The translations under genes were made by a program, and so were the position numbers. DNA of 39,708 nucleotides from a virus. The notes beneath the pieces are model-generated. The model had not been told where the DNA came from. It ran no database searches and saw nothing but the letters and a program-made list of their open reading frames with translations. Location of the stretch: positions 1-39,708 of IMG/VR virus record IMGVR_UViG_3300021142_000079; one strand, written 5' to 3'. Positions 2,112 through 28,200 of this stretch are shown here, in pieces (position 1 is the first letter of the stretch; each line of letters starts with the position of its first letter).

Positions 2112-2798
2112 ATGAATGTTAGATTACTTAGTTTCTCTCAACCAACAGAAGAGTTTGCATCAATGGGCATCGATGACGCACAAGAACTCATTGCGTATTG
2201 CGCCCGTGTGTCCAATCCTTCCAATCAGCTTAACACAGACACATCAGAAAAGCTCATACAGTATCTTGTCAAACACAAACACTGGAGCCCACTCGAAATG
2301 GTTTCCGCTTGTCTCGAAATCACTACAACTAGAGACATTGCCAGACAAATCCTTAGACACAGAAGCTTCAGCTTCCAAGAGTTCAGTCAGCGATATGCTG
2401 ACCCTACTAAAGACTTGTCGTTTGTATTGCGAGATGCTAGAAAGCAAGACACAAAAAATAGACAAAACAGCATAGAGTTAGATGTTTATAATAATGATGA
2501 AGATCGATTCCTCGCCTATCAGTGGGAACGTATGCAAGAGTTAGTTATTAAACAATCACGTGAAGCATACGAATGGGCTATACTAAAAGGTATTGCTAAG
2601 GAACAAGCTCGTGCTGTACTACCAGAAGGTTTAATCGAAAGCCGTTTGTACATGAATGGTACGTTACGTAGTTGGGTACATTTTATAGAACTACGTAGTG
2701 CGAATGGTACTCAGAAAGAACACCAGGAAGTCGCTATTGCTTGTGCTAAAGTGATATCTGAGATTTTTCCGCTAGCCAACGAACTTCTAGCCAATTAA
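2112..2798 (+). CDS. thyX: Flavin-dependent thymidylate synthase (ThyX)
   Basis: The predicted enzyme makes dTMP from dUMP with methylenetetrahydrofolate, FAD and NADPH, supplying thymidine for phage DNA synthesis. The diagnostic ThyX motif RHR-x7-S is intact as RHRSFSFQEFS (residues 82-92). Other family segments are the N-terminal AYCARVSNP (residues 28-36), ARAVLP (166-171) and the substrate-side LRSWVHFIELR (185-195). The length of 228 residues is usual for ThyX. The start at 2112 is three bases after the preceding stop, with only a weak purine-rich site (AAGAAAAAGAAG) upstream, so it may depend on coupling. The last 53 bp overlap the end of the convergent minus-strand gene. The terminator at 2818-2843 closes the operon. 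Confidence 0.96.
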   Translation: MNVRLLSFSQPTEEFASMGIDDAQELIAYCARVSNPSNQLNTDTSEKLIQYLVKHKHWSPLEMVSACLEITTTRDIARQILRHRSFSFQEFSQRYADPTKDLSFVLRDARKQDTKNRQNSIELDVYNNDEDRFLAYQWERMQELVIKQSREAYEWAILKGIAKEQARAVLPEGLIESRLYMNGTLRSWVHFIELRSANGTQKEHQEVAIACAKVISEIFPLANELLAN

Positions 2799-3426
2799 AA
2801 TCATTTATCTTAGCAAGTGCCTCCTTATTGGAGGCATTTTTTTCTCCGTATTGTCTACCAGATAACGCACCTAAATAAGCATAAAATCCGTATTCAGCAT
2901 TTTCATTTAGTGTACACCATGCGTCTAATCTGAGTAAAGATTCTTCGTTATTAATTACTGCCAGTTTACAAGATTCCCTAAAAGCACTACGCCAAGTACT
3001 AAATGGATCTGTATTAAATGCTGTAATGTTACTAATAGTATCCATTGCTTTAAATTTAGTACTGATATTTGTAGTCATATCTATAGTACTAGTATCCATT
3101 TTTAATGTAAGAGATTTTGGTAATAATTTAACTCCGCCATATCCGTAACTTAAATTATTAACAGGATTTAAACTACGCCAAACATGCACTACATCTAAAT
3201 CCCAATCGCTTACTTCGTAATCAAAATTAAAATCGTTTAATATAACGGCATCAGCATCTACTACCCAAAACATTTTAGTAAATGATTTACGGGCGGCGGC
3301 AATATGAGCTTGGTGTATTCCTTCTACTCCGTGTACACGTTTTGCTAAAGGAAAGCGTTCTTTTAAACTAGCAAAGTTATCGTCAGCATCCGGCTCATTA
3401 TAACTTATAAAGATTATATCATACAT
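2746..3426 (-). CDS. Glycosyltransferase-like protein, DAD motif, 226 aa (paralogue of next gene)
   Basis: This is a probable GT-A-fold protein. It opens with a beta strand and an EPDA motif (DIIFISYNEPDADDN), then KRVHGVEG (residues 29-36) and a hydrophobic strand ending in VVDADA (DAD at 57-59), the usual place for the metal and nucleotide-sugar DxD. YGYGGVKLLPK (94-104) and a DPFSTWRSAFRE segment follow. All four landmarks recur in the same order in the upstream 298-residue protein, so the two are tandem paralogues. The start overlaps the upstream gene by 8 nt (3419-3426). The 3' end overlaps thyX by 53 bp and contains the thyX terminator. The sugar and acceptor are unknown; the fold is inferred from motifs only. 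Confidence 0.8.
   Translation of the reverse strand: MYDIIFISYNEPDADDNFASLKERFPLAKRVHGVEGIHQAHIAAARKSFTKMFWVVDADAVILNDFNFDYEVSDWDLDVVHVWRSLNPVNNLSYGYGGVKLLPKSLTLKMDTSTIDMTTNISTKFKAMDTISNITAFNTDPFSTWRSAFRESCKLAVINNEESLLRLDAWCTLNENAEYGFYAYLGALSGRQYGEKNASNKEALAKINDFNWLEVRWLAEKSQISL
2818..2843 (+). terminator. Rho-independent terminator of the plus-strand thyX operon
   Basis: A perfect 7-bp stem (TGCCTCC at 2818-2824 paired with GGAGGCA at 2830-2836) with a 5-nt loop is followed directly by seven T (2837-2843). It lies 20 bp after the thyX stop. In the opposite direction no U-tract follows the hairpin, so it should stop only plus-strand transcripts. It lies inside the coding sequence of the convergent 226-residue gene. 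Confidence 0.88.
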
Positions 3427-4315
3427 GGCGTTTTCTTATTATACGAGGACTATTATTATAAACTGTTTTAAAAAATCGACTTCCAGCAGAATCTAAATTA
3501 GCTATTTCTAGTTTACATTTGTCTCTTAATTCTGCTCCTAAAAAATTAATGTATTTGGTCATTTCTTCAGGCTCAGCTAATTCGTGTGTAGTATTCCAGT
3601 ATTCTGTTAACCAATCAAAATCTCTTACTTGACTATAGTCCCAATCAGTACAGTTTGTTTTCCAGCATCCTTCTCTAGCACCCATTATACTCCATATACC
3701 ATTTTCTACATCTGTACCCACGCTAGCCCAAACTAATAATCTATGATAATTTTGCCACCAGATAGTTTTAAGATCTACTACCTTAGCTCCTTGATCTAAA
3801 CTCATCTTTACACCTTCACGGAATCCCGCTCTCCATGCTTGAAAAGGAGTTGCGTTGGTAAAACTTTCACTATAACTTTCATTGAACTGATAGTACTTGT
3901 CGTCAAAACAAAATTCAACTAGACCTTTAGTATCTTCTGGATCACTATTTTCATGTGTACGCATTTCATTTACAAACTTACGTGTCCATAATTTTAATCC
4001 ACCATTACCATACATAAGTCCATTAACATGAACACGCCCGCACCAACTAAACACATGTTCAGGAGTTAAACCTAATTTGTCTAAGTCTATTTCTACTTCA
4101 AGAAATTTTGGATCTACAATATTGTCAGCATCTACTGTAACAAAGTATTCTGTTTCACTTAATGCGGCGCAGGCTTTATGTGCGGCATCACTACCTTTAA
4201 CTCCGTGTACACGTTTTGCCCAAGGTACTTTAGTACATAAATCAGCATAGTTTTTTTCAGCATTAGGTTCATCATAACTGAGGAAAATAATGTCTTGTTC
4301 TAAAATTTTAATCAT
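3419..4315 (-). CDS. Glycosyltransferase-like protein, DADN motif, 298 aa
   Basis: The first ~250 residues align by eye with the downstream 226-residue protein: DIIFLSYDEPNAEKN, KRVHGVKG (34-41), VDADN (61-65), YGNGGLKLW (102-110) and TPFQAWRAGFREG. A C-terminal extension of about 50 residues (from roughly LAEPEEMTKYINFL onward, ending in a basic RIIRKRHV) is absent from the paralogue. The DxD-type site suggests a metal-dependent nucleotide-sugar transferase, with unknown donor and acceptor. It overlaps its neighbours by 8 nt on both sides, so translation is probably coupled along the operon that begins at 6930. Confidence 0.8.
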   Translation of the reverse strand: MIKILEQDIIFLSYDEPNAEKNYADLCTKVPWAKRVHGVKGSDAAHKACAALSETEYFVTVDADNIVDPKFLEVEIDLDKLGLTPEHVFSWCGRVHVNGLMYGNGGLKLWTRKFVNEMRTHENSDPEDTKGLVEFCFDDKYYQFNESYSESFTNATPFQAWRAGFREGVKMSLDQGAKVVDLKTIWWQNYHRLLVWASVGTDVENGIWSIMGAREGCWKTNCTDWDYSQVRDFDWLTEYWNTTHELAEPEEMTKYINFLGAELRDKCKLEIANLDSAGSRFFKTVYNNSPRIIRKRHV

Positions 4316-4910
4316 GTTTTATTCCGTAGTAAGTAAAAAACTTTTTAGTGGATACTGATAAATTGTCAATTTGAGATTCAATTGAGCTTTCAAAATCATA
4401 AATGATTTCTCCTGCCTTAAGTATATCATGTATTCTAAGATAAAAAGTTCTAATTAAAAAATCTAAATCTGTAGATAATGTCACAAAAACAACCAGTGTA
4501 TTATCATATCGAGCTCCAGATAGTACACTACGTCCAGCATCAGTAATAGAAAATTTCCATTGTTTATTTTCATTATCCCATGTAACTGTAAATTCTGTAT
4601 TAACATTGATAGGTTCTGTAATCCAAATCAAGTCGTTCTTTTTAAAACTAAACTCGTCAAACATCTGTTTGGTTATTAATTTATGCTCTATTGTACCGTC
4701 AGAATTAACTACACGATCAATAATACAATCATTGAAATTAACTTTAGTAGATGTTAACTCGCCATGTTGATCTTTAGTAATTTTAGCATAGTACTTATGA
4801 GTTGGGTGTAATTCATTAGTAACTAAAAATACTCGATCAGTTAATGGATCAAAATAAGCATAATGCTCAAGTTTAATATTTTCAATTGGATTAAATTTAC
4901 GTTTAGCCAT
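4308..4910 (-). CDS. Unknown protein, 200 aa, within the glycosyltransferase-like operon
   Basis: The protein is rich in aromatic and beta-strand segments (LEHYAYFDPLTDRVFLVTN..., DLIWITEPINVNTEFTVTW) and may be a beta-sandwich. A helical end (DFLIRTFYLRIHDILKAGE) follows. It has no DxD motif, signal peptide or membrane segment. It lies between the two pairs of glycosyltransferase-like genes and overlaps both neighbours by 8 nt (4308-4315, 4903-4910), so it is probably made with them in fixed ratio. I do not recognise a family. An accessory or acceptor-binding role is only a guess from position. Confidence 0.72.
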   Translation of the reverse strand: MAKRKFNPIENIKLEHYAYFDPLTDRVFLVTNELHPTHKYYAKITKDQHGELTSTKVNFNDCIIDRVVNSDGTIEHKLITKQMFDEFSFKKNDLIWITEPINVNTEFTVTWDNENKQWKFSITDAGRSVLSGARYDNTLVVFVTLSTDLDFLIRTFYLRIHDILKAGEIIYDFESSIESQIDNLSVSTKKFFTYYGIKHD

Positions 4911-5742
4911 TTGCTAGTGCCTCTAATCTTTCTAGTAGTTTAGGAGTTATAAAATCCTTTTCTACATAATGAAATATTTTAGATTGATTGATGTTGTTTA
5001 CTATAAGATCGCCTTTAATATTTAAAATACACGATACTGTATCTGTCCATTTTTCTGGATATGTAATCCACCCTTGAAGAGGGCTTTTCATATGTATAAA
5101 TTCTAAAGGACTATGTTTATCTAAAACAGTATTATGACACAACAATAATTCAATTGTTATTGCTGTTGCAAGATCCATACTGGGCCATTTTTGATATTCT
5201 TCAGGAGCAAATTTAGTCCAGCACCATTCCCAGTTTTTACAAACAAACTCTAATGTCTTATAAAACTCTAAAGCACCTTGAGATTTTTTAAAATAATGAA
5301 GAGCAAAATAAGGACTTGTAAGTTTATTAGCTATAAATGCTTTTCTATGTATTGTATCAACAACTGTTTCTAATTTATAATTCTTGATTCTATCGCAAAA
5401 TTTAATTTCGTAATCTTTACAATAATCCCACCAAGTGCTTATATCCTCGACTATCAGCATATCGCTATCCAATACAATAGTTTCATCATATGGACTAGCA
5501 TGAAATAACTTCCATCTATGTTCTACCATTAATGGACTATTTTCAACTTCTTCAAACCATGGGATAGGAATTATGTTATCAAATAACTGTTGATATTTTT
5601 CAGGTACTAGACAATTAGTTACAATAGAAACATTTTTAATTTCTGTTTGACTGTATTTTATACTTAAAGCCAAGGCACAGGCTTGTGTAACATAATCTAC
5701 ATTATTTGTATTTTCGGCAAATATTAAAAATCCCTTAGACAC
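4903..5742 (-). CDS. Glycosyltransferase-like protein, DSD motif, 279 aa, GTG start
   Basis: An ATG start at 5754 is possible, but a GTG at 5742 is preferred for three reasons. A GGAGG site (5752-5748) sits 5 nt upstream of the GTG. The resulting overlap with the upstream gene is 8 nt (GTGTCTAA), like three other junctions in this operon. The protein then aligns from residue 1 with its upstream paralogue (SKGFLIFAENTNNVDY against TQGAIIFAQNNSAVDY). The GT-A-like strand YDETIVLDSDMLI places DSD at residues 92-94. A WPSMDLATAITIELLL helix and a histidine near the end (IFHYVEKDF) could complete a metal site, as in GT8-type enzymes. The donor and acceptor are unknown. Confidence 0.78.
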   Translation of the reverse strand: MSKGFLIFAENTNNVDYVTQACALALSIKYSQTEIKNVSIVTNCLVPEKYQQLFDNIIPIPWFEEVENSPLMVEHRWKLFHASPYDETIVLDSDMLIVEDISTWWDYCKDYEIKFCDRIKNYKLETVVDTIHRKAFIANKLTSPYFALHYFKKSQGALEFYKTLEFVCKNWEWCWTKFAPEEYQKWPSMDLATAITIELLLCHNTVLDKHSPLEFIHMKSPLQGWITYPEKWTDTVSCILNIKGDLIVNNINQSKIFHYVEKDFITPKLLERLEALANG

Positions 5743-6583
5743 CAGAACCTCCATCTATGTACCGACTTAAACTTATCTTGTTCATAACATGAACATCTAA
5801 TCCTGTTGTTTTAACTAACGTATATTCTCCAATATGGTCTTTCTTTTCTACAAGAAATTTCATTTTATTACCATCTGTGTTTATTAGAATATCCTTGTCC
5901 TTGGAATAGGTCATTTTTCCTGGCAACTCAACAGCAAATTGTCCGTTGGTCTTTCCGTTCATAATATGAATGGCAATACTAAAAGCAAAATCATTTCTAA
6001 ATTTAGCATCTACAATACCATACAATGTTCTGAAATACAACCAGTTAGATTTAATATAAACTATAAGATCAAAAAATGCCTGCGTTACAGAATTTTTTTC
6101 AAATATAAATGTAGTTGCCCAGTAAAAAGGAATACTGTATTGATTTATTCTATAAAATTCGTCAGTTGGACGCCAACTAGCAAGATCCATACTTTTACTG
6201 TATATTTGAAAATCGTAATGGTTGTCCATTGCTGGTTTAAACACAGAAGAATTTAAAATATAATCGCTATCTATTACTAGTGTTCTATCGTAAGGAGTTA
6301 AATCGTACACCTGGTCTCTAGTTAAATTTTTCCACTCGGCAGTTTTACTTGCTATAGTACCGTCATGAAATTTTTTATATTGAGTAGTATCGGAATATCC
6401 TATAATTATAATTTGATCAAAACCGTGATCAGGATAGGCGTGGGCAAGCCAATCAGGACTATCTGTAACTATGCTTACAGGAATATCTAAATATTGTCTA
6501 ATGCGACTTGCGGCAAAAACTGCCAGTTTGATATAGTCTACAGCAGAGTTATTCTGAGCGAATATTATTGCTCCTTGTGTCAT
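5735..6583 (-). CDS. Glycosyltransferase-like protein, DSD motif, 282 aa
   Basis: This is the paralogue of the gene just downstream. Both share the N-terminal nucleotide-binding-like strand (GAIIFAQNNSAVDYIKLA), an SIVTD strand (residues 37-41), and the YDRTLVIDSDYIL strand with DSD at 105-107. The rest is more diverged: the middle (FYWATTFIFEKNSVTQAFFDLI) suits an acceptor-side helix. No signal peptide or membrane segment is seen. The start ATG overlaps the stop of the 116-residue gene by 4 nt (ATGA, 6580-6583), and its end overlaps the next start by 8 nt. A GT-A-type transferase is the best guess; substrate specificity cannot be read from the sequence. Confidence 0.78.
   Translation of the reverse strand: MTQGAIIFAQNNSAVDYIKLAVFAASRIRQYLDIPVSIVTDSPDWLAHAYPDHGFDQIIIIGYSDTTQYKKFHDGTIASKTAEWKNLTRDQVYDLTPYDRTLVIDSDYILNSSVFKPAMDNHYDFQIYSKSMDLASWRPTDEFYRINQYSIPFYWATTFIFEKNSVTQAFFDLIVYIKSNWLYFRTLYGIVDAKFRNDFAFSIAIHIMNGKTNGQFAVELPGKMTYSKDKDILINTDGNKMKFLVEKKDHIGEYTLVKTTGLDVHVMNKISLSRYIDGGSGV
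5748..5752 (-). promoter_or_regulatory. Ribosome binding site GGAGG that decides the GTG start at 5742
   Basis: On the minus strand GGAGG lies 5 nt before the GTG at 5742-5740 and inside the would-be 5' codons of the longer reading. The ATG at 5754 has no comparable purine-rich site upstream. This supports the shorter protein. Confidence 0.75.
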
Positions 6584-6930
6584 AGCTCTACAATATCTGA
6601 AATTTTTCTTTTGGTTTTTAACTCTGCGTATTTGGCGGCGTATTCATTTGTTGCTTCGAAATACAAGCCGCTAATGTTATCAAAAAATTGTTGTACGTCT
6701 TTTATAATAACTGGAAAATCATTAGAATCTACAAAAGCTACATCTTCTGTGTAGCCTAGATCTAGTACAGTTTTTGTAAAATTAATTAAGTCGGTTGTAA
6801 TTTTAAAACTAGCGCCGTCGATGTAGTGGACTAATTTTTGATTGTATTCTTCTAAGATAATTCGACGTTGATTAGATAACGTCGACATATAATTGGCCAC
6901 CGCAAAGGCCTTTTCAATTTTCTCATCCAT
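6580..6930 (-). CDS. Unknown protein, 116 aa, first gene of glycosyltransferase-like operon
   Basis: This mostly helical protein starts MDEKIEKAFAVANYMSTLSN and ends in a Lys-rich helix (YAAKYAELKTKRKISDIVEL). It has no recognised catalytic motif, signal peptide or membrane segment. The ribosome binding site is CGGAG (6938-6942 on the minus strand). A near-consensus sigma70-type promoter at 6951-6979 would start the transcript only about 13 nt before the ATG. The 4-nt overlap with the following gene argues for coupled translation. The function is unknown. Confidence 0.78.
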   Translation of the reverse strand: MDEKIEKAFAVANYMSTLSNQRRIILEEYNQKLVHYIDGASFKITTDLINFTKTVLDLGYTEDVAFVDSNDFPVIIKDVQQFFDNISGLYFEATNEYAAKYAELKTKRKISDIVEL

Positions 6931-6950
6931 AACAAACTCCGTAGTGTACT

Positions 6951-6979
6951 ATAATACGCTACTGTAATTAGTTTGTCAA
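6951..6979 (-). promoter_or_regulatory. Sigma70-like promoter for the glycosyltransferase-like operon
   Basis: Read on the minus strand, TTGACA (6979-6974) and TATTAT (6956-6951) are separated by exactly 17 bp. The expected transcript start is near 6944, giving a very short leader before the ATG at 6930. The -35 hexamer is perfect and the -10 has one mismatch to TATAAT. It lies in the 61-bp gap after the 312-residue gene, where no T4-type late box is found. Confidence 0.78.
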
Positions 6980-6991
6980 TGGATATTGGTA

Positions 6992-7930
6992 TTAAGGATT
7001 TGAACTACTAAAATCGTAAGTATTAGCAGTCGCGGTTGGTAAGTAGCTAGAAGCTGAAACTTGTCCAGATCCAGAAGCATAATACAATGTTTGAGTACTA
7101 GTTGTTGCGCCAACTACAGATTCGTCAACACCATATACGCCATAACCTGGACCATAGTTTGTTTGATTAGCAGATATACTTAAATCTTCAAACTCTATTC
7201 TAAAATTAATTGTTGAACCACTAATGCTAGCATAGATGTCATATTGGTTTGGAGTATAAGTTGAATTTTCAGTTCCTTTAGAATAAATTAATTGGAAAGA
7301 ACCTGTAAGCTGATTATATCCTATACTGCTACCAGTACCTGGTGTAGTAGCACCAGCTAGCGTAGTAGTATTATTAACACCAAACGCAATGGTTCCCATA
7401 TGACTTAACATACTAGACCAACTGTTATCTTTAGCACTACCGCTACTGGCCAAACTAGCTGTGAAACGAATTTGTCCGCCTGTGTTGAAAAAATATTGAG
7501 CTACTGTAGTATTGGTAAAAGTTACCGATAAAAAATGTCTTGCTGTACTTTGTCCTGCGTTATTAACACCCCATCCGCCTGGAATACTAATTGAGTTAAG
7601 AGAAGAAGACGCTGAATAGCCTGATAAGAAATTAGTATAATTGGACAAACAACTATTAGCCATTGTTTGATATGCGGCAAAATCGGCAGCCTGAACTTTA
7701 TTACTGGTAGTTGGATAAGTTAAAGAACCGTTGGAAGAATTTTGATGGTTGTAAGCAGTTAAAATGTCAGTGTATAACGCTTGCCATTGGGCTGCAGTAA
7801 TGCGAGAAGTACTAGCTGTAACTTGACTGCTGTTAACTGTTTGGCCATAGTAAGTGCCCATTACTGTAGCAATAGTTGTTTGAACACTATTATATTCACT
7901 TGCTAGTATTTTTGAACCTACTGACGCCAT
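6992..7930 (-). CDS. Probable virion structural protein, 312 aa
   Basis: The protein begins MASVGSKILASEYNSVQTTI with a helical N-terminal third containing many Gln and Tyr (GTYYGQTVNSSQVTAS, ITAAQWQALYTDI). It then becomes Ser/Thr/Gly/Asn-rich and beta-stranded (from about SISIPGGWGVNN), as is usual for exposed tail or fibre proteins. There is no signal peptide, membrane segment or enzyme motif. The ribosome binding site is AGAGG, and a perfect late box TATAAATA lies 26 nt upstream of the start (7956-7963), so it should be made late with the virion genes. A tail-fibre-associated or decoration role is likely; the exact position in the particle is unknown. Confidence 0.72.
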   Translation of the reverse strand: MASVGSKILASEYNSVQTTIATVMGTYYGQTVNSSQVTASTSRITAAQWQALYTDILTAYNHQNSSNGSLTYPTTSNKVQAADFAAYQTMANSCLSNYTNFLSGYSASSSLNSISIPGGWGVNNAGQSTARHFLSVTFTNTTVAQYFFNTGGQIRFTASLASSGSAKDNSWSSMLSHMGTIAFGVNNTTTLAGATTPGTGSSIGYNQLTGSFQLIYSKGTENSTYTPNQYDIYASISGSTINFRIEFEDLSISANQTNYGPGYGVYGVDESVVGATTSTQTLYYASGSGQVSASSYLPTATANTYDFSSSNP

Positions 7931-7955: not shown

Positions 7956-7963
7956 TATTTATA
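7956..7963 (-). promoter_or_regulatory. T4-type late promoter box TATAAATA
   Basis: A perfect match to the T4 late -10 element on the minus strand, overlapping the stop of the 686-residue fibre gene and 26 nt before the 312-residue gene. Late promoters need only this box when the phage late sigma and clamp system are present. Confidence 0.78.
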
Positions 7964-10047: not shown

Positions 10048-10732
10048 CTGTATTTGGTGTTGATTGATTGCTCTGTACCCAAGTATTAAAGGCTGCCATC
10101 TGAGCGTCATCGTACCCGTATAATTCGGGATATACACTAAGCCACACTGAGCTTAATTCAGGTACTAGGGCTTTAAATCTGATAGATGCGTAGCCTATTT
10201 TGTTCAATTGAAAGGTTACCGCACCGCCGTTTGTTGTCGTGGACTTATAAACACTAGGATCAGCACCGTCGATACTAATAGGAAAATCTAACTTTTGTAG
10301 ATTTTTTACGCCTATTTCTGTAATATCAGTACACTGAACTCCGTTTTGATCTACAATTTGTGGAATAAGAGTAATGAGGTTGTCTACTCCTACAATAGAT
10401 TTCTTTTTACTATCTAAGTAAGTGTTAGGTCCAAAATTTACAATAGCTTTTCTCATTTTAAGAGTATTTTCTGGAGTCCAAAAAGCCATTTGACTTGGAG
10501 CTAAAATACTTTGAGAAATATCATTGTATTGTTGCTGGGTGATAGTTCCTAGATAATGATTTTCTAGATCTGTATCGCTATGCTTAACATCAGCAAAAGA
10601 CGCTAGTGCCCCGTAAAGCCCTGTGATTAATCTAGTAGTCATTGAAAATGTAATACTATATTGTTTGTCTTCTGTCCATCCAGTAGATATTTTAACTCCC
10701 GGTGGTGCTGGTGGTATAGTTGTATCTGTCAT
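10043..10732 (-). CDS. Unknown protein in fibre cluster, 229 aa
   Basis: The N-terminus has a Pro-rich stretch (TIPPAPPGVKIS). A mixed helical/beta body follows, including FWTPENTLKMRKAIVNFGPN and a beta-rich segment with GGAVTFQLNKIGYASIRF. There is no DxD motif, cysteine cluster or membrane segment. Its ATG overlaps the stop of the U32-like gene by 4 nt (10729-10732), and a ribosome site AAGG lies just upstream, so the two are probably made together. It could be a fibre-associated structural protein or a partner of the U32-like protein. I do not recognise a family. Confidence 0.7.
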   Translation of the reverse strand: MTDTTIPPAPPGVKISTGWTEDKQYSITFSMTTRLITGLYGALASFADVKHSDTDLENHYLGTITQQQYNDISQSILAPSQMAFWTPENTLKMRKAIVNFGPNTYLDSKKKSIVGVDNLITLIPQIVDQNGVQCTDITEIGVKNLQKLDFPISIDGADPSVYKSTTTNGGAVTFQLNKIGYASIRFKALVPELSSVWLSVYPELYGYDDAQMAAFNTWVQSNQSTPNTV

Positions 10733-11727
10733 GCTGTAACCTTTATTAATTTATCGTATACTTTGTCGCAATGATCGCATTCAATTCCGCAAACTGTTTT
10801 ACAATTATTAGTTAGCTGATTGAATCCTAGTTCAGTAATATCATTGATTAGTGTTAATGCCAATGGCATGTGACCTGTAGTGCTTAATATTTCACCGAAT
10901 CTAACATTACCACTAGATCTTTGATAAGCGTCTACTACACGGGTCCATCTTTCGATAGGGTAACCTCTTCCGGCTAGTTTAATAACATCAACTAAACCGT
11001 CAAACTTTCCTAAATCATTAGGAAATGTAAATGCTGTTTTAAGCCATTCCGCAGGACGTTCTTTAAAGTAACTAACACATCCTAATTGGTTGTGTACATT
11101 AGAAGTCAACTCTCGCTTGTCGTGTATCTTAACTTGACTTATAATTAAATCGTCCCATTGTTTCCATTTACAATCTACTATACATCCTTCATTAACTAAC
11201 ATGGTAATTTTAATATCATGCTGTTTGGCATACGCACTCATCTTGCGTAAGGTATCTAAGTCTCTATTTAAACTTCGATCTACAATGATATTTGTAAGAT
11301 GTAACACTTCATGCATAAAAATAAAATCTTTAAGTGTACGTACTAAGTTGTTTACACTATTTTTTAATACAATATCAGGTTTATGTTTTTGAAAATCTTT
11401 TATAATGTTAGATCTAAGTAGATACGAATTGTTAAGTGTTATCATATCTACATCAATATTTTTGACATGATCAATTAAATCGAACACTTGACCATAAAAT
11501 TCATTACTGTACAAACTAGGATTAACTAGATAATGTAATTTTATTCCGTATTTTGCTCTTACAGCATACAATTCGTCAAACATTTCTTTAGAGCCAAACA
11601 AACTTCTAGCACTACCAAATTTGTTGTCGCTAAAATACACATCAGAGATAGAATCGGTATCTAAATTCTCTAAAGCTCCAAGAATGCCTTCTGTATAAGG
11701 TATACTAAATTTACGGTGTGTAGACAT
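10729..11727 (-). CDS. TIM-barrel U32/UbiU-like protein with seven cysteines, 332 aa
   Basis: Features recall peptidase-U32-like TIM-barrel proteins (UbiU/UbiV, RlhA, TrhP), several of which bind an iron-sulphur cluster and act in hydroxylation rather than proteolysis. Strand/helix repeats run through the first 170 residues (HYLVNPSLYS, MITLNNSYLL). VNEGCIVDC (C182, C186) sits where the family has its conserved Cys-rich loop, and C217 follows. VIKLAGRGYP (residues 248-257) matches the family's lKxxGR strand, followed by a WTRVVDAY helix. The C-terminus holds four more cysteines (C309, C313, C317, C320), which could bind Fe-S or zinc. AGGAAG precedes the start, which lies 17 nt inside the upstream fibre gene. 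The substrate is unknown; the family call is from pattern only. Confidence 0.68.
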   Translation of the reverse strand: MSTHRKFSIPYTEGILGALENLDTDSISDVYFSDNKFGSARSLFGSKEMFDELYAVRAKYGIKLHYLVNPSLYSNEFYGQVFDLIDHVKNIDVDMITLNNSYLLRSNIIKDFQKHKPDIVLKNSVNNLVRTLKDFIFMHEVLHLTNIIVDRSLNRDLDTLRKMSAYAKQHDIKITMLVNEGCIVDCKWKQWDDLIISQVKIHDKRELTSNVHNQLGCVSYFKERPAEWLKTAFTFPNDLGKFDGLVDVIKLAGRGYPIERWTRVVDAYQRSSGNVRFGEILSTTGHMPLALTLINDITELGFNQLTNNCKTVCGIECDHCDKVYDKLIKVTA

Positions 11728-14614
11728 TGTTTGTTCTGCTTCCTATTCCAATCCAGCTAGCTTCTACACTGGTTCCGTGATAATAATGGTCACCGCTTGT
11801 AGCCGCTGTTACATAGAACCAACCGTAGTAGTAATTATTTCTGTCATAACTCAATGGCTGTACACTAACTGCCCAAGTTACTGCTTCTAATCCGTAATAA
11901 TTATTTCTACCATCATATATAGAAGTGAGGGCAGAGTGAATATTCAAATCGTAGTGACCCTTCCAATATAAACTATTAGGATCATAACTAAGTCCTAAGA
12001 GATATCCTAAGTCTATTGTAATAGTAACAGTTCCGCTTGACTGATTACTATAACCTAAGTTATAATAACTAGTAGTCCATCCACCGTAAGTACCGCTAGG
12101 AGCATACGCATTATTAACAGGCGAGCCGCCCCATTGATGCATGTCAATAGTGCCTACAATAGTTTCAACAATATTTTGTAAATTATTATTAAGATTCTGT
12201 GCTATAATTATAGGATCAGGAATATAAGGCTTGTTACTTAAATCATTATAGTTTCCACTTGTAGCTACGGTAGCTAATAATGAACCAAAGTTAGCATCAG
12301 TTAAAATCTTAGCCCATGGGCTCCAAGTATTAGACACATCTCGACGACTACGGATATAGTTATCAGCGTTTGCTCCAGTTGATCCACTCCAGCCAATCAA
12401 TAGTTCTCCGCCACCGGCTCCGCCAAGTGTAATTACATTACCATAAGCTGTTGGATATCCGTTGTTGTAAACACTACGCAAAGTAAGTTGATAACTAGGC
12501 TCGTTAGTTCCGCTTTCTGGTGCTATTGTACCTTGATTAGTAATAGAACTCGATGTTCCGCTAACATTTCCTTGTACATTACCAATTACAGGACCATTAT
12601 GTGTTCCGTAACTATTACCTGTTACATTACCTGTTAAATTGCCCGTGAACGCCGACGCACTAATAGTGCCATTTAATGCTAAACTACCTCCTGGGCCGAA
12701 CTGTCCAGAATATAACCCATTATTGGCAATGTTAATATAACCATCTCCGCCCCAATAGAAGCCAGTATCCTGAGCGCCGTCGTTATAGAACGCAATACTT
12801 GGATTGGCAGCTGATCCATTTGATAAAAATATTCTACCACCCTGAGCATATATTGTGCCAGTTACGTTACCAGTTACGTTACCTACAACTGGACCAGTAT
12901 GTGTTCCTGCGGTGTTGCCAGTTACATTACCAGTTACATTACCTGTTAAGTTACCAGTTACGTTACCTACAACTGGACCAGTATGTGTTCCTGTAGTATT
13001 ACCTATTACGTTACCTGTTAAATTACCTAAGAAGTAATTTGTAGCAGTATGAATTGCTCCTGTGGCATTACCAGTTACATTACCAGTTACATTACCTGTT
13101 AAGTTACCAGTTACATTACCTGTTAAGTTACCAGCAAAATGGTCGCTAGCTGTATGTATTGCGCCGGTAGCATTTCCTGTAAGATTTCCTGTTATGTTGC
13201 CTACAAAATGGTCAGTGGCAGTATGTATTGTTCCTATAATGTTACCCTGAACATTACCTACAACGTTACCAAATACATCGCCAATTTGTTGTCCCGAATG
13301 ATTGCCAAAGCTGTCACCGTATAAACTACCTGTTACATTTCCAGTAACTGGTCCAGTATGTTGACCTGTTGTGTTACCTGTTACATTACCAATAATACTA
13401 ATATTGTAAGTAGCATTATTGTTAAACACAAAATTATTTGGCTTGTTTGGATAAATGTTATTCCAATCAACTTGATTAGCAACTGTAGCAACATCTGCTA
13501 AAGTGGCATGATCTGCCAGGGTAGCATGATCTGCTTCTGAAGCTGCATCTGCCTTGCCTATAAAATGCGCACTAGTAATAGCACCATTATTATCTCTAAC
13601 AACTACTGTATTAGGATTTCCTGCTACACTAGCAGTTTGATAATTTCCATTGCCATCGTTTAATGTATCCGACTTTTGTGCTGTAGAAAATACATATCCA
13701 GCATATAAATTATTAAATTTAAGGCTAGTACTACCTAAATTTGTAGATAAATTAGCATTAGGTAACACATCGTTGTTAACTAATGTTAATGGAGTATTTG
13801 CTCCAGCATTTGTTTGAAATTGTATCTTTGTCGAAGCGGCTCTTAATGTTGGAGTTGAACTAACATTTAATAATGTTGTTGCCGAACCAACATTAACACC
13901 AGCATCAGGAGTTTGAATACTTGTTAAAAATGTAGGATTAGTAACTGGCGCATAGAAAGCAGGAGGATTATTTCCTAAATTGTCTGCGTTTGTGCTTGTA
14001 CCGTGTACTTTGTAATTTGAATTTAATGTTATTCCCTGATATATTGTAGCAAATCCTGGAATTGAAACTTTAGGAGTAAAGTCACTATAAGAACTGATTA
14101 TAAAATATATATTGCCGTCTACTAGTGCTTGTTGTACAGGATGCGGATTGTTACTAGTATCTATAATAGTAGTACTCAACATTTCTGTTGTGCCAAATCC
14201 AGTAACACTTTGCGGTCCTACTAGTATATAAGTAGATCCGTTGTATACTTTTAATTGATTGTTAGCTGTATCATACCACATATCTCCTAATGTAGGAGTG
14301 CCAGCAGGATTTTGTCCTCCAGCAGATGTAGGACCAACTTGATTAACAGCAAGTGCTTTCCAGCCTCCGCCGTCAAACACATTTAATTTTAAGGCAGAAC
14401 TAGTTGTATTAAACCATGTTTGCCCTATTGTTGTTTTTACAGGTTGACTAGTACTGGCAAAATTTTGTAACAACCATAAAAAATTATCGTTTTGTTTTTC
14501 ACCATAGCCGGCATAGTTTTTACCAATGAACGTAAGACTGCTAGTGGTATTAATTGTGCCGTCTGCTACTATAGCATAAGGTGTTCCATCAAAATTTGTT
14601 ATGTTGTATGACAT
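11711..14614 (-). CDS. Long tail-fibre protein, 967 aa, with TGNV repeats and pyocin-knob-like domain
   Basis: The N-terminus has the shared fibre module (LTFIGKNYAGYGEKQNDNF, LLQNF, IGQTWFN, LGDMWYDTANNQLKVYNG). Residues ~402-589 form a shaft of GNVTG/GNLTG steps broken by two recurring cassettes, TGTHTGPVVGN and GAIHTATDHFxGN. After a segment with SNGSAANPSIAFYNDGAQDTGFYW, a pyocin-knob-like domain spans about residues 707-780 (TLRSVYNNGYP..., NTWSPWAKILTDANF). The last ~150 residues are Tyr/Trp/Ser-rich and may form the receptor-binding tip. It overlaps the U32-like gene by 17 nt. The only upstream box is the imperfect GGTAAATA at 14641-14648, so expression may come mainly from the promoter at 19196. 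Confidence 0.88.
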   Translation of the reverse strand: MSYNITNFDGTPYAIVADGTINTTSSLTFIGKNYAGYGEKQNDNFLWLLQNFASTSQPVKTTIGQTWFNTTSSALKLNVFDGGGWKALAVNQVGPTSAGGQNPAGTPTLGDMWYDTANNQLKVYNGSTYILVGPQSVTGFGTTEMLSTTIIDTSNNPHPVQQALVDGNIYFIISSYSDFTPKVSIPGFATIYQGITLNSNYKVHGTSTNADNLGNNPPAFYAPVTNPTFLTSIQTPDAGVNVGSATTLLNVSSTPTLRAASTKIQFQTNAGANTPLTLVNNDVLPNANLSTNLGSTSLKFNNLYAGYVFSTAQKSDTLNDGNGNYQTASVAGNPNTVVVRDNNGAITSAHFIGKADAASEADHATLADHATLADVATVANQVDWNNIYPNKPNNFVFNNNATYNISIIGNVTGNTTGQHTGPVTGNVTGSLYGDSFGNHSGQQIGDVFGNVVGNVQGNIIGTIHTATDHFVGNITGNLTGNATGAIHTASDHFAGNLTGNVTGNLTGNVTGNVTGNATGAIHTATNYFLGNLTGNVIGNTTGTHTGPVVGNVTGNLTGNVTGNVTGNTAGTHTGPVVGNVTGNVTGTIYAQGGRIFLSNGSAANPSIAFYNDGAQDTGFYWGGDGYINIANNGLYSGQFGPGGSLALNGTISASAFTGNLTGNVTGNSYGTHNGPVIGNVQGNVSGTSSSITNQGTIAPESGTNEPSYQLTLRSVYNNGYPTAYGNVITLGGAGGGELLIGWSGSTGANADNYIRSRRDVSNTWSPWAKILTDANFGSLLATVATSGNYNDLSNKPYIPDPIIIAQNLNNNLQNIVETIVGTIDMHQWGGSPVNNAYAPSGTYGGWTTSYYNLGYSNQSSGTVTITIDLGYLLGLSYDPNSLYWKGHYDLNIHSALTSIYDGRNNYYGLEAVTWAVSVQPLSYDRNNYYYGWFYVTAATSGDHYYHGTSVEASWIGIGSRTNNVYTP
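12850..13410. repeat. Degenerate coding tandem repeats in the fibre shaft, with two perfect 44-bp direct repeats
   Basis: A short unit (roughly GTTACNTTACCN on the plus strand) recurs throughout and encodes GNVT-type steps on the minus strand. Two perfect 44-bp direct repeats are visible: 12866-12909 with 12950-12993 (84 bp apart, 28 codons) and 12918-12961 with 13071-13114 (153 bp apart, 51 codons). The in-frame offsets mean that recombination between copies would lengthen or shorten the shaft without a frameshift. Confidence 0.9.
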
Positions 14615-19222: not shown

Positions 19223-22200
19223 TTAACTCTTGTAATCTGTGTACCAAATACCCGGGCTAACCTTTAAAAACTCAGCAATTTTGCTGTTATCGTTTAAAAT
19301 ATTAACTGGATTATTCTTATCGCCATCCCATGCTGTACCAATTTGTTTGATTACAGTAACATGGGTGCCTTTGTTTAACAAATTAGTTAATCTAATCTGT
19401 CTAGAAGATCCGTCTACCGCAAAATCTGCGTCTAATGTAACATCGCCAGCTGGACTATAAGGATTAACGTTGACGTTATGTACCTTATATGGTTGTTTCT
19501 TCAATCGGATATTACCAATAAAGAATGTCCAGTTTGTGCTGTCAGCATTAAATGTTGCGCCACTTGTATGAGCAGTTGTACATCTGTAAGTATAGCTACC
19601 TATATTAACTATATCTCCAACACTATATTCAATACCACTAGCCCAAGCAGATCCATCGTTGTATCCTCCAACAAATACTTCAATATTATCACATTGTCCG
19701 TATCCTGGCGGAATAGCAGTTGGAGCGATTTTCCAGTGTTTAGTGTCTGTTGGTAATATTGTCACAGAAGTGCTAGCCGAATATGACAAAATATTAACAT
19801 AATATGTATTTTGATATACAACAACAGAGTTAATACTGTACGAAGATAACGGATTATATGTACCCTGGTATGTGTAACCTGATGTTTTAAACCATGCTAT
19901 AACTCCTGTAGGATCGGATTCAGATCCTAATGCTGGAGCAAAACTTAAATTAACTGAATTAGTACCATCGCTGATAATTTGCTCAGTAATAGTAGTTTCA
20001 GTGTATGGAATAGTTTCTGTTGGTCCAATATCTTGTACAAAAGCGCCGGCTTTATGTAGTTTGTAAACTCCTGTGCCCAATGTACCACGACGTAATCTAC
20101 TTACTATATTTCCATTTTTGGCAAAATATTCGATACGTTCGCCACGTATTTCAATGACGCCAGGTTTATTAGCAGTAGGGTTTGGAACATCAAAATTGCT
20201 AGCATCAGTTAGAGTGATACTAGTATCATTCCAATGTAGGTCCGCGGCAAGTGTAGTTCTTTTCTCTAAACTTAAACGTTTGTAAGTTACACGGTTTAGC
20301 ATATCTTTAAACTGCATGTAAGCAATTCCAGATGCTAATATGTTGCTACCAAAAGTAATAAATGTCAGCTGATCTGTCTTGTTAGGTAACGTTGCTAACT
20401 GAACACTTTGTTTGTCATCATTTAATTTATAATCAATAGTTGGTGTCAACAAAGTACCATTTTTTGTAATCCAAACATAGTCATCACTTATAATAGTTCT
20501 GTCTAATTTTATTAATCCAGATGCTAAATTTTTATAGTAATAGTAATCCGCAGTATTTGGAGTCAATGTAACATTCGATGTTACATTAACACTAGAACGT
20601 CGAATATCTAATACAGAATGATTGTAAGAGCTTATCACTTCAACAACATGAGTATTGTTGTATGCCTGTGTGAATGTTATTGTCTGTGCACTAGCATTAT
20701 AGAAATAACTTTCATCTGTAGTGATACTTACTAACAATGTAGTTCCCATATATAAAGTATAGGCATTTTGTGTCAATGTAATGGTAATTCCAGATAAGTC
20801 TACTGTATAATCTGAACCTAAATTCAATTTTACACCGTTAGCTATTACATTAATATTTTGAATTGTAGCTGAATAAGGAACAATTTTTGCTGGGTCAATA
20901 TTATAACTCAACTGATTGTCTTCGATTATAAAATAGTTGTCGTTAGGTCCTTCCAAAATAGTTTGATCCACACGAACTAGCATACTAGACTCATAAGGTA
21001 AACTTGTCCCAACTGGATATGCCAGTGAATAAGTTAAGCTAACTCCATCAGTTGCTAAAATTTCTTTGTTCGTTACAACAAAAGTCTGTTGGCTTCCGCT
21101 TACAATAATGAAATTAATTAAACTGCCTGCTGCCGGCGGAGTTGTAAATTTAAACCCAACTGCGTTGGCGAAATCATATGTTCCATCTGTTTTAAACAAC
21201 TGAGGATTCGCAACAACTCCATCGACATATACGACTGCTGTAATATCTTTTAACCAAGGTGCTTTAGTTACAAATTCTGTAGTAGTAGCATCGCCTACAA
21301 AGTAGTCAAGGTCAAGAATGTTAGAACCAGCAAATCCTATGTTGAAAATAGTTACAATAGTATTAGCAGAAGGTTTTGATGTTAATGTAACTTTTTTATT
21401 TTTATAATCAACTGTATAGTCAGTTTGATAAGTTTTTATAGTATTACCAACTTTAACAATTAATGCTTTTGGACTATTAGGTTGTTGAGATAATGTGTAA
21501 GTTTTTGTTACACCATCGGCGATAAAATTATCTGTTACAATAGTTGCGGCACCGGAATTAGATCTATCAAAAACTTTAATAGCCACAGCATCAACTACTT
21601 GACCTGGCACAACTTCTTCTGGAGCAGGACTTGTGGTTGGTGTAACCATTCCGTCGCCGTCAACGATAATATCGTCTGCTGCCAATCCAGTAGCTGTACT
21701 ATATGCCATGTCTCCGCCCACTAAAGAAGTGTCGTAATCATTGGCATTTGGTAGTATAGAACCGTCGCTGGTGCTACGTCTGATAATAAACTCATCACCG
21801 TTTGAAACTGTATATCCGTTTGGAATAGTAATTGTATACTGATACAATCCTGGAGCAACTTGACTATCAGGAGTTCCAGTAGCAACCGGAGTTGTCATTA
21901 TAGCATTTTTATTTGTTTGTTGCTGTGTTCCATAATGCGGATCGTCTAATCTAACAGGACTAATTTTACCAGTAATATTAAGAACTGTTAAATCAGATAT
22001 TCCTGTTGGGTATGTTGTACTGTTAAGAACCGCAGTACCGTTAGCATTAATTGTAATATCGGCAGGAGTTTCTAATGTTTTTGTAAATGTTAATTCAACA
22101 CTTGGAACAATATCTGTATACAATATTGAATTTATAGAAACTGTTTGACTGTCAATAATTGCTGTAACTGTTGAATTGTAAATCAACGAATTAATTGTAG

Positions 22201-25200
22201 AGCAAGCAACAACATCGCCTACATTGATATATGTAGTGTCTGCTACTGTAAGTTGTGTGCTACCAGAAAAGTTATATGTAAAGATCAATGTTCCACTAGG
22301 TATGCTATCAGGAGCTCTACTCAATGTAACTGTATTTGTACCCTGATTTACACTAACAACTTTATGTATAGCACTACCAATAATAGTACCTGACTGAGTT
22401 TTAACTCCAGTTGCTGTACTTGTGTAGCTAACACTAGTAGTAGTACACGCGGTAACTGTATAAGTTCCACTGTAAGCTACTGGCAGAACGTTGTTAACAA
22501 TAATAGTTTGTCCTATGCTGTATGGAGGTGTAGATACTGCGTCAAATGTCAATGTGACTGTAGTACCATTTCCACTTGCTCCGGTAGTAGTTAACACAGC
22601 TACATTAGAACTAAAGCCTACTCCAATAATTCCCATGCCTGGCAATATTCCACTAGCGTTAGCAACAACTAATGTAGTTTCATAACTGCCGTTAGGATTA
22701 TATGTAGTAGAATGCCCAGCAGTGTTGATATGAGTAATTGTTGTTGCTACAGGACTGCTGTCATTGATGTTATAACTAAATTCTAACTGATTGTTATAAA
22801 CTCCGCTTCTGTTGTCATAACTATCAACGTTGTTTTTAATTTGATAAATGTTGAGTTGTGTATTAGCCGCTGGAACATATGGTAATGTAAAGCTGTGCGT
22901 ATTAGCGGCTACTGTGACATAGTAGTCGTCAAAACTGCTGTCATAGTTATCCCACTTATCTTTATAATAAGGACTAGCACCCCATCCAGTTTGTACGTTA
23001 AATCCGAGCCCGTTAACAATAGTTCCACCGTAATCAATACCTGTCATTACTTGTGCTAGGTCTTTACCTAACATTCCAGAACCTGGTTCGTAATAAAATT
23101 CAACACGATCTGCGGCATTTAACATAGCTGAATTAATTAAGTAAGTTACAGATAATGTAGTGCCTTTAGCTGGCGCATTTCCTACCGCAAATGTAATTAA
23201 TCCAGAGTATTGTGTATAACCGTTCTTAGTTGAAACAACAGTACTTAGAGTATATAATTCTCTTAGTACAGGAATTCCATTAACTGTTATCGAACTTTGT
23301 CCGACTCTAATATCAGGTGCCCAAGTTAACGCAAATTTTAACTGACTACCATCACCTAAGAATGTCTGTTGTTGTTGTAATTGTGTTACATAATTTGTTT
23401 GACTTACTCTATCAAATTTAATACCAATAGTTGTCGAACGAACAACACTTTCTCCAATGATTGCGATTGCTCTGGCCTGTACTCCGGTTGTACTTAGGCC
23501 GCCGTCCAATACAATTTCTGGAGCTGCCAAATATCCACTACCTGGAGTTAGTAAAACTACTCTAGTTACTACACCATTATTGATGAATGCTCGTCCAGTT
23601 GCGCCGGATCCGCTTTCACTATTGAATACCACTTGTGGAGGAATGTTATAACCAGATCCTCCGTCAATTAATATTAACTCGGTTACAATAAATCCAACAT
23701 TGTCTAACCAGAATTTCCAAGGATATGTTTGTATAGCACTATCACCAGCAACAAGTTTTCCATTCTGAACAGTTATATCGATTAGACCCACTTTATCATT
23801 TTCATAAATTGGCATTACATCGAAGTCAGTAATAGGTAACTGGGCAGTATCTAAACTTTCATAATTGCTTACATACTCTCTTACTTTTGTTCTATAAGGT
23901 TTAACTTCAGAAACATAATTTTCAAAGTTAGCCAAGTTTTCAACTGGATAATTTACAGGCTGGTCTAATGCTCCAACATTGTGTTGAGCTTTAACAAAAC
24001 TAGTTTTAAAAATCCAATCTACATATACTTGTTCGCTTAGTACATAATGAACGCTGTTGAAGAATAAATTTAAATATTCTTGTTTTAAACTATCAATAAA
24101 AATATTATTTTTAATAGCTTTTAAAATAATTCTTAGTTCTGTTGCCGCAACAACGTCAAATCCTTCGCCGTCGAAAATACTCGAATCATAACCTACATCA
24201 GTCAAAGCAAAATCATATAATTTACTGCTAAATTGTATGGTTCCATTTTGTATACCAATTGTATTATAACTCTGTGTCCAATCTACGCTGTTAACATCGG
24301 CATATTTTTCTAGCAATATCCAGCCGCCATTATTAGATGTTCTAATTCTAACAATTTGTCCCACTTTTACAGTTATTGAATTTAAATCAACAAATGTATT
24401 GACAGCATAATCTTCTACTGTAAATTGATTATAACCTGATGCGAACCAGTCTGCGTAAGACCAATAATTTCTCACATCGTAGCTTTGTGTTAGCGTTCTA
24501 GACCATTGTTTGTAAACAGGATCGTATGTGTAAACACTCCATTGGTTGCTAGCTTGGCTATCACTGTGTACTAGTACCGCATAGTTTCTAATCGAGCAAC
24601 GAGTATTACTATCATAGCCAGCTCCTGATGAAATAATTGTTGCTCCAGTTACTTGTCCTAAAGCATTAATTGTTGCTCTAACTACGGCACCTGTACCAGA
24701 TCCAATAATTTCTATGTATGGAGATGTAGCTACATTGTTTATAGTAGAAACAAAACCTTTACCCGCAGAATTTATAATGATACCAGTTATAGCGCCATTG
24801 GTAATAACAGGAACTAAACTAGGAGCAGAAAAACTAGATACACTAGCATATGGCAACTCGGCATCGGTATCTAATATCGCATCATATAACCCGCTGCCAA
24901 TTGTTGGTTCTTTATCGTAGCTTTCTAAACTGCTAATGTTTAATTCGGCAATTTGATTAGTAATCATCACTTGGTTAGCATATTCTATTAATTGTTTTAG
25001 TGCTTCAAAACGATTAATAAACATACTTTGTCTTGGACGATTTTCAATACCGTAACGAATCTTAAATGGTAATCTTGGATCAGGTACTACTTTTCCGTTA
25101 GAATCTATTCCACATAGACTATCGAACCATTTTTGTTCAACTATCTTAGGAAGATTAATATTTGGATCATTACTGATCATCTTATACTGTGTATGTATAT

Positions 25201-28200
25201 TTTGATCTGTTTTATCTATAGTCCAGAATTCTACCGATAAGATTACATTAGATGATGTCAAGTACCCCTTAACATTAGTTAGGCTAAATGTATTCAAACC
25301 AGTAATACCTAAATATGTGTAATCTTGGCCTCTTGGATTTGCTATTAAATTAGCAACGTCCATCGCTGACATTTGTCTGCCATTTACATAAGGTATAACT
25401 ACTTTATTTTTAACCCAGAAATAATAGGTATTTTTAAATGTTTTGCTAATTTTATCATAAGACTGAGTTGTACTATAGACAGAATCTCCATACAGACTTG
25501 TTCCACTTATACCACTAGCAAGGCCAGCGTTAGTGTCGGCCTGAGCGTCCCATTGACTTGGTTTGATAGTTGAGCTTACCCATTCATAAACATCAATGCT
25601 TGCGCCTGCGGCCAATTGATTCCATGTTGAATTTCTATAAACAACGTCTTGGTCGTAACTGTTAATAAACTTAGCTGTTCTTAAATCCCACCATAATTGG
25701 CCAACTTGTTTGTTAGACCAGATACTAGCAGTATTAACTACAACATCACTAGTACCAATACTGTATACAGCAGGATCATAAAATGTTTTATATCTAATTT
25801 CTTCTTCAGCTGGGCCTGGAATTTTTCCTTGTAACGGGTCAACTACATCCAGATATTTTAATAAACTGCCACTTGTTTTATCATACAAGAATGCTTTTTT
25901 AATTTTCTTAACATCAGCAACTGGAGTTTGTTGCGTATGAATAGTCCAAGTATAATTGTTTGGCAATTTATAATAATTATAAATCGCACCAGAATTTGTA
26001 AAATTGTTTTCAGTGGTATTAGGAGCTCCGGCAAAAATTTGATTTACTCCTACAGCAAATCCAGCACCAAGTGCGTCGGTAGAATGTCCGGTTGTTGGAA
26101 TCGTTTCGCTATACACCCATTGGGTATCATAACGATCGTATATGTCAATTCTTCCTGAAGAATTTACTGTTGAAAATACTACTAGTGTAGTATATCCGTT
26201 CATAAAGGCAATTTTATTTCCAAATGTTCCAGATACGCTTGGACGAGGATGAATTCCTGTTGTGTGAACTAAATCATATTGTCCATTTGAAAGTAATGGA
26301 TAAATTATAACCCCACTAGAGGAAGCTGTCAAATTACTAATAGCAAGATAATCTGCTGAATCTGAAAGGGCTATACTAGCACCAAATGTAATTCGAGATA
26401 GTGTATCTGAAATTGTTTGACTTAAGGCAAACCCATTACCTGTGTCTTTATATACAAATACTTGTCCGGCAACAGATCCACCGCTAGCGGAAATAGCTAG
26501 TGTTGAACTATCTGTGCTTACTACTATTGAACTACCAAAGTTACTATTAGAACTTGTACCTGTATAAGTTGTAGAATAATGCCAACCAGTTGTAACAAAG
26601 TTTAGTATTCCAGCCGGAGTACTGTCAGGGCTACCTGACAACTCAAGTGTTGTACTATTGATAACCGCTGTAACTGTTTGTCCACTTGTGAATCCCGTAC
26701 CTTGTACAATTAATCCTGGAGTAATATTGGTTGTACTTGTTACTACTAAAGTCGCATAACTACTACCAATAGGGTTGTATGCCGAACTTACGATAACATT
26801 TGATGTATAGGCTAATTTATAAACACGACCAGTATTATTGTTATACCCTATAGCACCTACATACAATTCAGAAGTATTGAAAGTTAATGTCGAACCAAAT
26901 TTCTCACCTGTAACGTGTGTTGGATCAAAACCAATCGATGGGCTAACAATAGAATCAGCTAATAGATAACTGTTACCAAATGCTCGTTTGTAAACACTAA
27001 CAACACCTTGGTTAGTATTTGAACTATTGTTAGCTGTAGTACTAGTATCTACTGGAACGTATGGTATTTGATTCCAAGCAGATGCTCCATAAGGATTAAC
27101 TATTTGGTATCCGATAACAAATCCGCTAATAGGTGTCGGTAATGTGACTAATAAATCGTTAATAATATCCACGCCGCCAACAGCACTACCTTTAATTAAT
27201 ACCTGGTCGCCAGCTAGGTATCCCGATCCTGTAGCAGAAACAGTAACAATATAACTTGAGTTACTTGTTGGAAGTATTGGCTTAACTGTGAATGTTGCTC
27301 CTGAACCTAATATAACATTGCCACTTAAACTGGTATATGTTTGTGAAGGTGTGCTTACACTTGACCAAGTAACACCTGTAATAGCGCCTGGTGATAAAAT
27401 TGTTGTAGAACCATTTATAGCCGATACTGTTACTGTTATATCATTAACTGTATCAATGCCACCAACTTGAGATCCTAAAATAGTAATTTTATTTCCGACT
27501 TTATATCCTGCGCCGCCGGAAACTACATTTACAGTATAAGTTGATCCAATTACTACAACGTTAAATCGTGCGCCTTGTGCTTGATTTTGTGTAACACCTG
27601 TAACACCAGTATATTGATGTAACATTGCTCCGGTTGTTTGATAATAATGTGTTCCGTCTGTAACAATCGCATTAGCAACATAGTCTGTAGAATTAGGAGT
27701 TGAATATACACCTTTGTAATTAGTTGCTACAAAACTAGAAGTAGGACTTCCAATAGCTAGCCATTGTTTATCATTACTAATTGCTACAGTAGTCGCAACT
27801 GAAGCTCTAGAATTTTTGTTTACAGATCCAACTAAAACGCTAAATCCTGTTCCTGTTCCGCCAATACTAGACGAGTTAACTGTTAGCCTATCGCCAACTT
27901 GATAATTTAAACCACCATAATTTAGTAAAACATTTGATACTAATCCGTTAGTCACTGTTACTGTAGCAACAGCAGTTCCGTCACCTGTACCAGAAGTAGT
28001 ATAAATTAACGGAACATTAGCATAAACTGTTGTGCCGACTGATGGAGTATAACCAGATCCACAAGTATTAGATACTTGAACTTCAACAGGTGTGTTTACT
28101 GTGCCGCCAAGATATCTTGCGTCTGCTGTTAATACTTGTCCACTTACATATTGTGTATTATATCTTACCAATTGAACAGTTGTAACTACTCCGTTAAACA

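Follow-up and report, generated by a model that had tools for sequence, protein, structure and literature searches.

The sequence studied comprises positions 1 to 39,708 of the IMG/VR virus record IMGVR_UViG_3300021142_000079 (39,708 nucleotides, hereafter the window) and comes from a T4-like phage of an uncultivated freshwater group. Baseplate genes, including wedge and hub genes of the T4 type, tail-fibre-like genes and other structural genes occupy the minus strand, and thyX lies on the plus strand. In the related records G002 and G004, scanning of 10 proteins identified major head protein, DNA polymerase, clamp loader, terminase and ssDNA-binding protein. The tail-fibre gene cluster of the window includes a 312-aa gene (6992..7930, minus strand) whose transcript would read into an operon of six minus-strand genes: p116 (116 aa, 6580..6930), gtB (282 aa, 5735..6583), gtC (283 aa, 4903..5754), the fast-evolving o4308 (200 aa, 4308..4910), gtE (298 aa, 3419..4315) and gtF (226 aa, 2746..3426). 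Neighbouring genes of this operon overlap, head to tail, by 4 to 20 nt in the window. A terminator-like stem-loop follows thyX on the plus strand (2815..2839), within the 3' end of gtF and between the two convergent operons. Relatives of p116 are encoded by 102 stretches in IMG/VR, the best 80 of which were used as loci. Among the loci listed, and as far as each contig extends, the order was constant (fibre genes, p116, gtB, gtC, o4308, gtE, gtF, convergent thyX), and in all 76 loci scored p116 and gtB overlap by 4 nt with the gtB start 347 nt after that of p116. A tblastn search of a cultured-phage collection returned no match to p116 (E up to 0.1) and none to gtE or gtB, and p116 was encoded in none of 36 pattern-matching stretches of bacterial genomes.

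The p116 protein yielded a confident helix/beta model (pLDDT 91.6) whose likeness to DUF4376-type phage proteins is confined to the fold: a viral fold library gave five matches at E up to 0.001, mostly DUF4376, and the Pfam DUF4376 sequence match was absent in 24 of 24 members. Matches of p116 to Pfam and PHROGs were marginal, and its model had no PDB counterpart at E up to 0.001. The products of gtB and gtC are related to each other, the former being glycosyltransferase-like and the latter having a weak match to a glycogenin (GT8) profile (E 0.003); no Pfam match at E up to 0.01 was found in 20 of 20 gtC members. A GT-A type glycosyltransferase-like fold is predicted for gtE (pLDDT 81.6), to which gtF is related; the top Foldseek match of the gtE model was a viral glycosyltransferase with an E of 1e-4 but a TM score of only 0.29. 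Sequence searches of gtB and gtE against the PDB gave nothing useful. The earlier note suggested that the cassette acts on the host or on products of replication; glycosyltransferase-like products could equally modify virion parts.

p116 is preceded by a 61-nt gap (6931-6991) between ORFs 6992..7930 and 6580..6930, both on the minus strand. A near-consensus host-type promoter had been proposed at 6951-6979, and we found it there, on the minus strand, matching 11 of 12 consensus positions across a 17-nt spacer. Its hexamers, TTGACA (-35, 6974..6979) and TATTAT (-10, 6951..6956), and their distance are those of a sigma70 promoter, with hexamers near TTGACA/TATAAT and a spacing of 16-18 nt. The position of the -10 predicts transcription to start at 6944 (about +/-2), giving a leader of ~14 nt. 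On one strand of 61 nt, an 11/12 match is expected by chance about once in 1000 shuffles (4/4000 shuffled window pieces, 5/4000 gap shuffles); four other sites in the window also reach 11/12 or more, including one 12/12 site. To follow the promoter among relatives, the locus set was enlarged by two more queries, and leaders that were identical or had less than 62 nt upstream were left out, which gave 95 distinct 62-nt leaders, window included. The promoter score was at least 10/12 in 92 of these (exceptions L080, L119 and L232). The -35 hexamer was exact in 75/95 and began TTGAC in 86/95, the spacer was 17 nt in 84/95, and the -10 conserved a TAnnAT form. In 53 loci, mean identity was 78% across the 29 nt from -35 to -10 versus 38% in the preceding 40 nt. 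Because the promoter at 6979..6951 is conserved in place and spacing among relatives, this comparison of sequences settles that it is real.

The same note had stated that the gap has no late box and that the neighbouring virion genes do, and both statements held. ATAAATA occurs five times in the window (28.2 +/- 5.3 expected) and is absent from 6931-6991. Four of the five precede virion-side genes, beginning on the minus strand 25-32 nt before the genes that start at 7930, 10019, 19175 and 38408; the box of the gene upstream of p116, TATAAATA, has its core at 7956..7962. On the plus strand, TATAAATA abuts the thyX start codon (2105-2111), too close for a normal thyX late promoter. In the best 80 of 102 loci, an ORF start follows 117 of 127 ATAAATA at 10-45 nt, the distance being 11 nt for 27 of the 117, and the 100 nt before p116 contain none in 77/80; L064, L065 and L070 have one each at -71 from p116. 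In 57 loci, the fibre side had 60 sense-strand ATAAATA in 247 kb, and the part beginning at the p116 leader had 4 in 306 kb.

Folding of the leaders revealed a feature that the earlier note had missed: an RNA hairpin is encoded by the same 50 nt that hold the promoter. The 5' arm is contained in the promoter, the loop overlaps the -10, the last bases of which fall inside it, and the 3' arm covers the Shine-Dalgarno sequence up to the ATG. Most leaders show two stems: in the outer one, the promoter spacer pairs with the bases immediately ahead of the ATG, and the inner one encloses a small loop. In the window (predicted fold, -17.7 kcal/mol, all on the minus strand), the outer 5' arm GACAAACT (6970..6977), inside the promoter, is predicted to pair with the 3' arm AGTTTGTT (6931..6938), which overlaps the Shine-Dalgarno GGAG of p116 (6937..6940) and reaches the ATG; this stem would be extended by pairing of CCAT (6979-6982) with the start codon region (6927-6930). 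The predicted inner stem joins GTAG-C-GTAT (6954..6962) to GTAC-A-CTAC (6941..6949). A scan of the window against Rfam at the gathering score found no known RNA family. As a terminator the hairpin was rejected: it lacks a U run, and neither strand of 6931-6991 has a terminator-like site.

A covariance model of the element (R1), built from 16 leaders, matched the window at 6931-6980 on the minus strand with 69.5 bits. Of 126 matches, 48 antisense ones were removed before counting; in the sense orientation, R1 was then found in 78 of 81 sources (L064, L065 and L069 were missed) and always before p116. All 16 of 16 whole records contained it once, ahead of p116 and nowhere else; the same site also gave a weaker antisense echo. 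The covariance alignment was preferred because a MAFFT alignment (A1) misplaced the arms of the divergent clade. Across 48 distinct rows in the sense orientation, standard pairs filled 91% of pair cells and 11 of 19 pairs showed two-sided changes, counts that overstate the independent events since the rows were fitted to the structure and are related; sliding the partner by 1-3 columns lowered pairing to 31-49%. Divergent relatives (L074, L111/L112, L145, L178/L179) each have an outer stem of their own and keep the architecture. L080, L081 and L119 have lost the -35 and kept a hairpin, with no recognisable promoter overlapping it in L080 and L119 (L119:2861-3012). Scored against shuffles, the hairpin was modest (median z 2.4, minimum -1.1). 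Because stems are rebuilt with new sequences and the hairpin outlives loss of the -35, these comparisons indicate that the pairing is selected in its own right and is no by-product of the promoter.

What would the hairpin do to translation? We computed the energy needed to open the stretch from Shine-Dalgarno to ATG in a long RNA, beginning 115 nt upstream or as far as the contig goes, and in a short RNA beginning at the predicted start. Across 95 leaders, the predicted median cost was 9.4 kcal/mol in the read-through RNA versus 2.1 kcal/mol in the promoter-started RNA (10.2 and 2.1 kcal/mol in a smaller set of 51 leaders; 12.3 versus 2.2 kcal/mol in the window). The difference was at least 5 kcal/mol in 82/95 leaders and below 3 kcal/mol in six (L023, L064, L124, L132, L202, L254). 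In 156 other genes of the same loci, taken as controls, the median difference was 0.9 kcal/mol, reaching at least 5 in 3/156 and at least 7 in none. The geometry is that of a nested promoter, with the predicted start at 6944 lying 3' of the 5' arms of the hairpin. Thus, because the opening costs differ in the leaders and hardly in the controls, the models predict that the read-through transcript should be closed and the promoter-started one open.

We consider it probable that this sigma70-type promoter, nested in the hairpin at the p116 ribosome site, serves to block translation of read-through RNA. From the promoter, the pairing, their conservation and the gene overlap, all present in the sequence, we infer a start site, read-through, a translational effect, coupling and timing as follows. 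Late fibre transcripts that read through would carry both arms, so that the hairpin would form and shut the Shine-Dalgarno sequence. RNA from the nested promoter would begin past the loop without the 5' arm and leave the Shine-Dalgarno sequence exposed. Since the six genes overlap, the first start likely gates the whole operon, and a closed p116 start would probably lower translation of all six by coupling. The operon would then rely on its own host-type promoter for expression, probably early in infection, and be silent late. The shortness of the nested-promoter leader, ~14 nt, counts against this mechanism.

Could the promoter act by itself? A reading in which it is a chance A+T-rich match, with the cassette expressed alongside the late genes, would fit the observation that sites of at least 9/12 are no commoner in the window than in shuffles, but the ~1 in 1000 expectation for the gap and the conservation of place and spacing in 92/95 leaders make it exceedingly improbable. 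Alternatively, the promoter may be simply a strong early one, the hairpin being incidental or acting on RNA stability. The promoter is indeed the most conserved part of the leader, and sigma70 promoters are enriched in G004; however, the hairpin persists despite loss of the -35 in L080, L081 and L119, paired changes rebuild it, and the 156 other genes hardly show the ribosome-site difference, so that we regard this explanation as unlikely.

Two further alternatives assign the element to a protein. The inverted repeat over the -10, present in nearly every leader, could be a DNA operator through which a repressor dimer controls the promoter, and PMC2988022 describes an operator over the promoter of T4 I-TevI itself. 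Yet the arm spacing differs by one to several bases among relatives, which would be atypical of a dimer site. In addition, another pair of arms, the outer one, extends to the ATG, entire arm sequences are replaced in pairs, and symmetric scoring gives 111 G-T and 23 A-C pairs versus 4687 and 3509 in shuffles. In these alignments, the variable arm spacing and the excess of G-T over A-C favour RNA over DNA. The G-T excess is partly due to column make-up, because shuffles of the covariance rows are also G-T-rich (means of 137.7 G-T and 28.5 A-C versus 120 and 9 observed), and related rows inflate the counts. We judge a DNA operator to be improbable, and have similarly little confidence in a hairpin that serves as the target of an RNA-binding repressor, with autoregulation as for T4 gp32 and gp43 in place of a plain block of read-through. 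One element per genome, before p116 only, would suit such a repressor, and PMC3014915 describes autoregulated leaders of this kind in T4; against it, the nested-promoter RNA would lack the 5' arm and hence the target, and loop and arm sequences differ between clades as the pairing stays, which does not point to a fixed protein target. The read-through block by a nested promoter is the explanation that we favour.

As to the timing of the operon, exact TTGACA-(16-18)-TATAAT sites number 10 in G004 against a shuffle mean of 0.17, and none was found in the part of G002 examined, which holds head, packaging and replication genes. These counts indicate that host-type promoters are concentrated in part of the genome, as early promoters would be, and that they belong to the early programme of this phage group. 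Because sigma70 promoters are far above chance in G004, early use of the p116 promoter is likely; it may also be active later. Of the proposal that host polymerase transcribes the cassette early, the host-type promoter and the lack of a late box stand, in the window and in nearly all relatives, and early transcription is likely. The proposed separation from the fibre genes in time is likewise likely and would go further than suggested, since the conserved predicted hairpin would add a translational layer to it.

How does the p116 leader compare with known systems? In IS10 and IS50, RNA started outside the element folds over the transposase ribosome site and RNA from the inner promoter does not. 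Translation of IS10 is regulated, and the logic of protection from read-through is shared with the p116 leader, but there it concerns the transposase of a mobile element and no phage operon. The closest systems are T4 e, soc, 49 and I-TevI, together with segB and Aeh1 mobE, as described in PMC3014915 and PMC2988022. According to these texts, a hairpin silences the early RNA of T4 e, soc, 49 and I-TevI and a late promoter lies inside the hairpin; all genes regulated by such hairpins are, according to PMC2988022, late genes on early or middle polycistrons. Common to these systems and, as predicted, to p116 are a hairpin of the long RNA that hides the Shine-Dalgarno sequence or the AUG and a nested promoter giving a short translated RNA without the 5' arm. 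In these known systems the nested promoter is late and the silent RNA early or middle, whereas the nested promoter of p116 is of the sigma70 type and the surrounding transcripts are late; the gap has no TATAAATA-type box and hence no late-type nested promoter. p116 also differs from them in heading a six-gene overlapping operon. The leader operators of T4 gp32 and gp43 (PMC3014915) likewise place structured RNA at the ribosome site of a T4-type phage, but repression there requires the protein, and their design does not centre on a nested promoter. The p116 leader, by its predicted structure, works like the T4 switches but with reversed polarity, one of their defining features being absent. Among the literature titles listed, in a search that left most subscription papers outside, none described a ribosome-site hairpin that contains a host-type promoter and lies among late genes.

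If the read-through block is true, it reverses the T4 rule as reviewed, in that an early-type operon would be protected from late RNA. It would also imply that late production of the glycosyltransferase-like proteins is costly, which bears on their role. About a hundred distinct leaders from this uncultivated group of freshwater phages have conserved the element, and a prediction that reporters can test was obtained from sequence alone. A wider reading, which we offer tentatively as possible though short of probable, is that the T4 lysozyme switch in mirrored form is a fixed feature of this group and that the p116 operon and a facing operon form an early island insulated from late transcription by promoter-built hairpins; the p116 operon, lodged among late genes, would in this extended form be an early operon translationally locked whenever late RNA reads through it, with its own host-type promoter as the sole means of opening it.

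The facing operon lies ~7.6 kb from the p116 operon, outside the window, and has a perfect sigma70 promoter whose 17-nt spacer is itself a GC-rich hairpin capped by a UUCG-like loop, TTGACA-CCTCC-TTCG-GGAGG-TGTTATAAT (for example L087:1501-1529 and L085:1501-1529). Each of 15 related records has one such site, located in the gap that separates a MoxR-like ATPase gene from the plus-strand gene after it, and its stem variants GGACC/GGTCC and CCACC/GGTGG covary. This promoter-hairpin may be a terminator fused to a promoter.

Other observations concern the structural genes of the window. A fibre-like protein with many GNVTGN-type repeats is encoded at 11711-14614 (minus strand) and adjoins a 332-aa gene (10729-11727) with a weak PHROG 'peptidase' match. 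Between the fibre and baseplate genes lies a 5243-aa ORF (19223-34954, minus strand), and related records also have very large ORFs, e.g. 4167 aa in L099 and 3508 aa in L107. Inside the 5243-aa ORF, at 26304-26332 on the minus strand, is the 12/12 sigma70 promoter of the window (TTGACA-17-TATAAT), a site of which ~0.1 is expected per window by shuffling.
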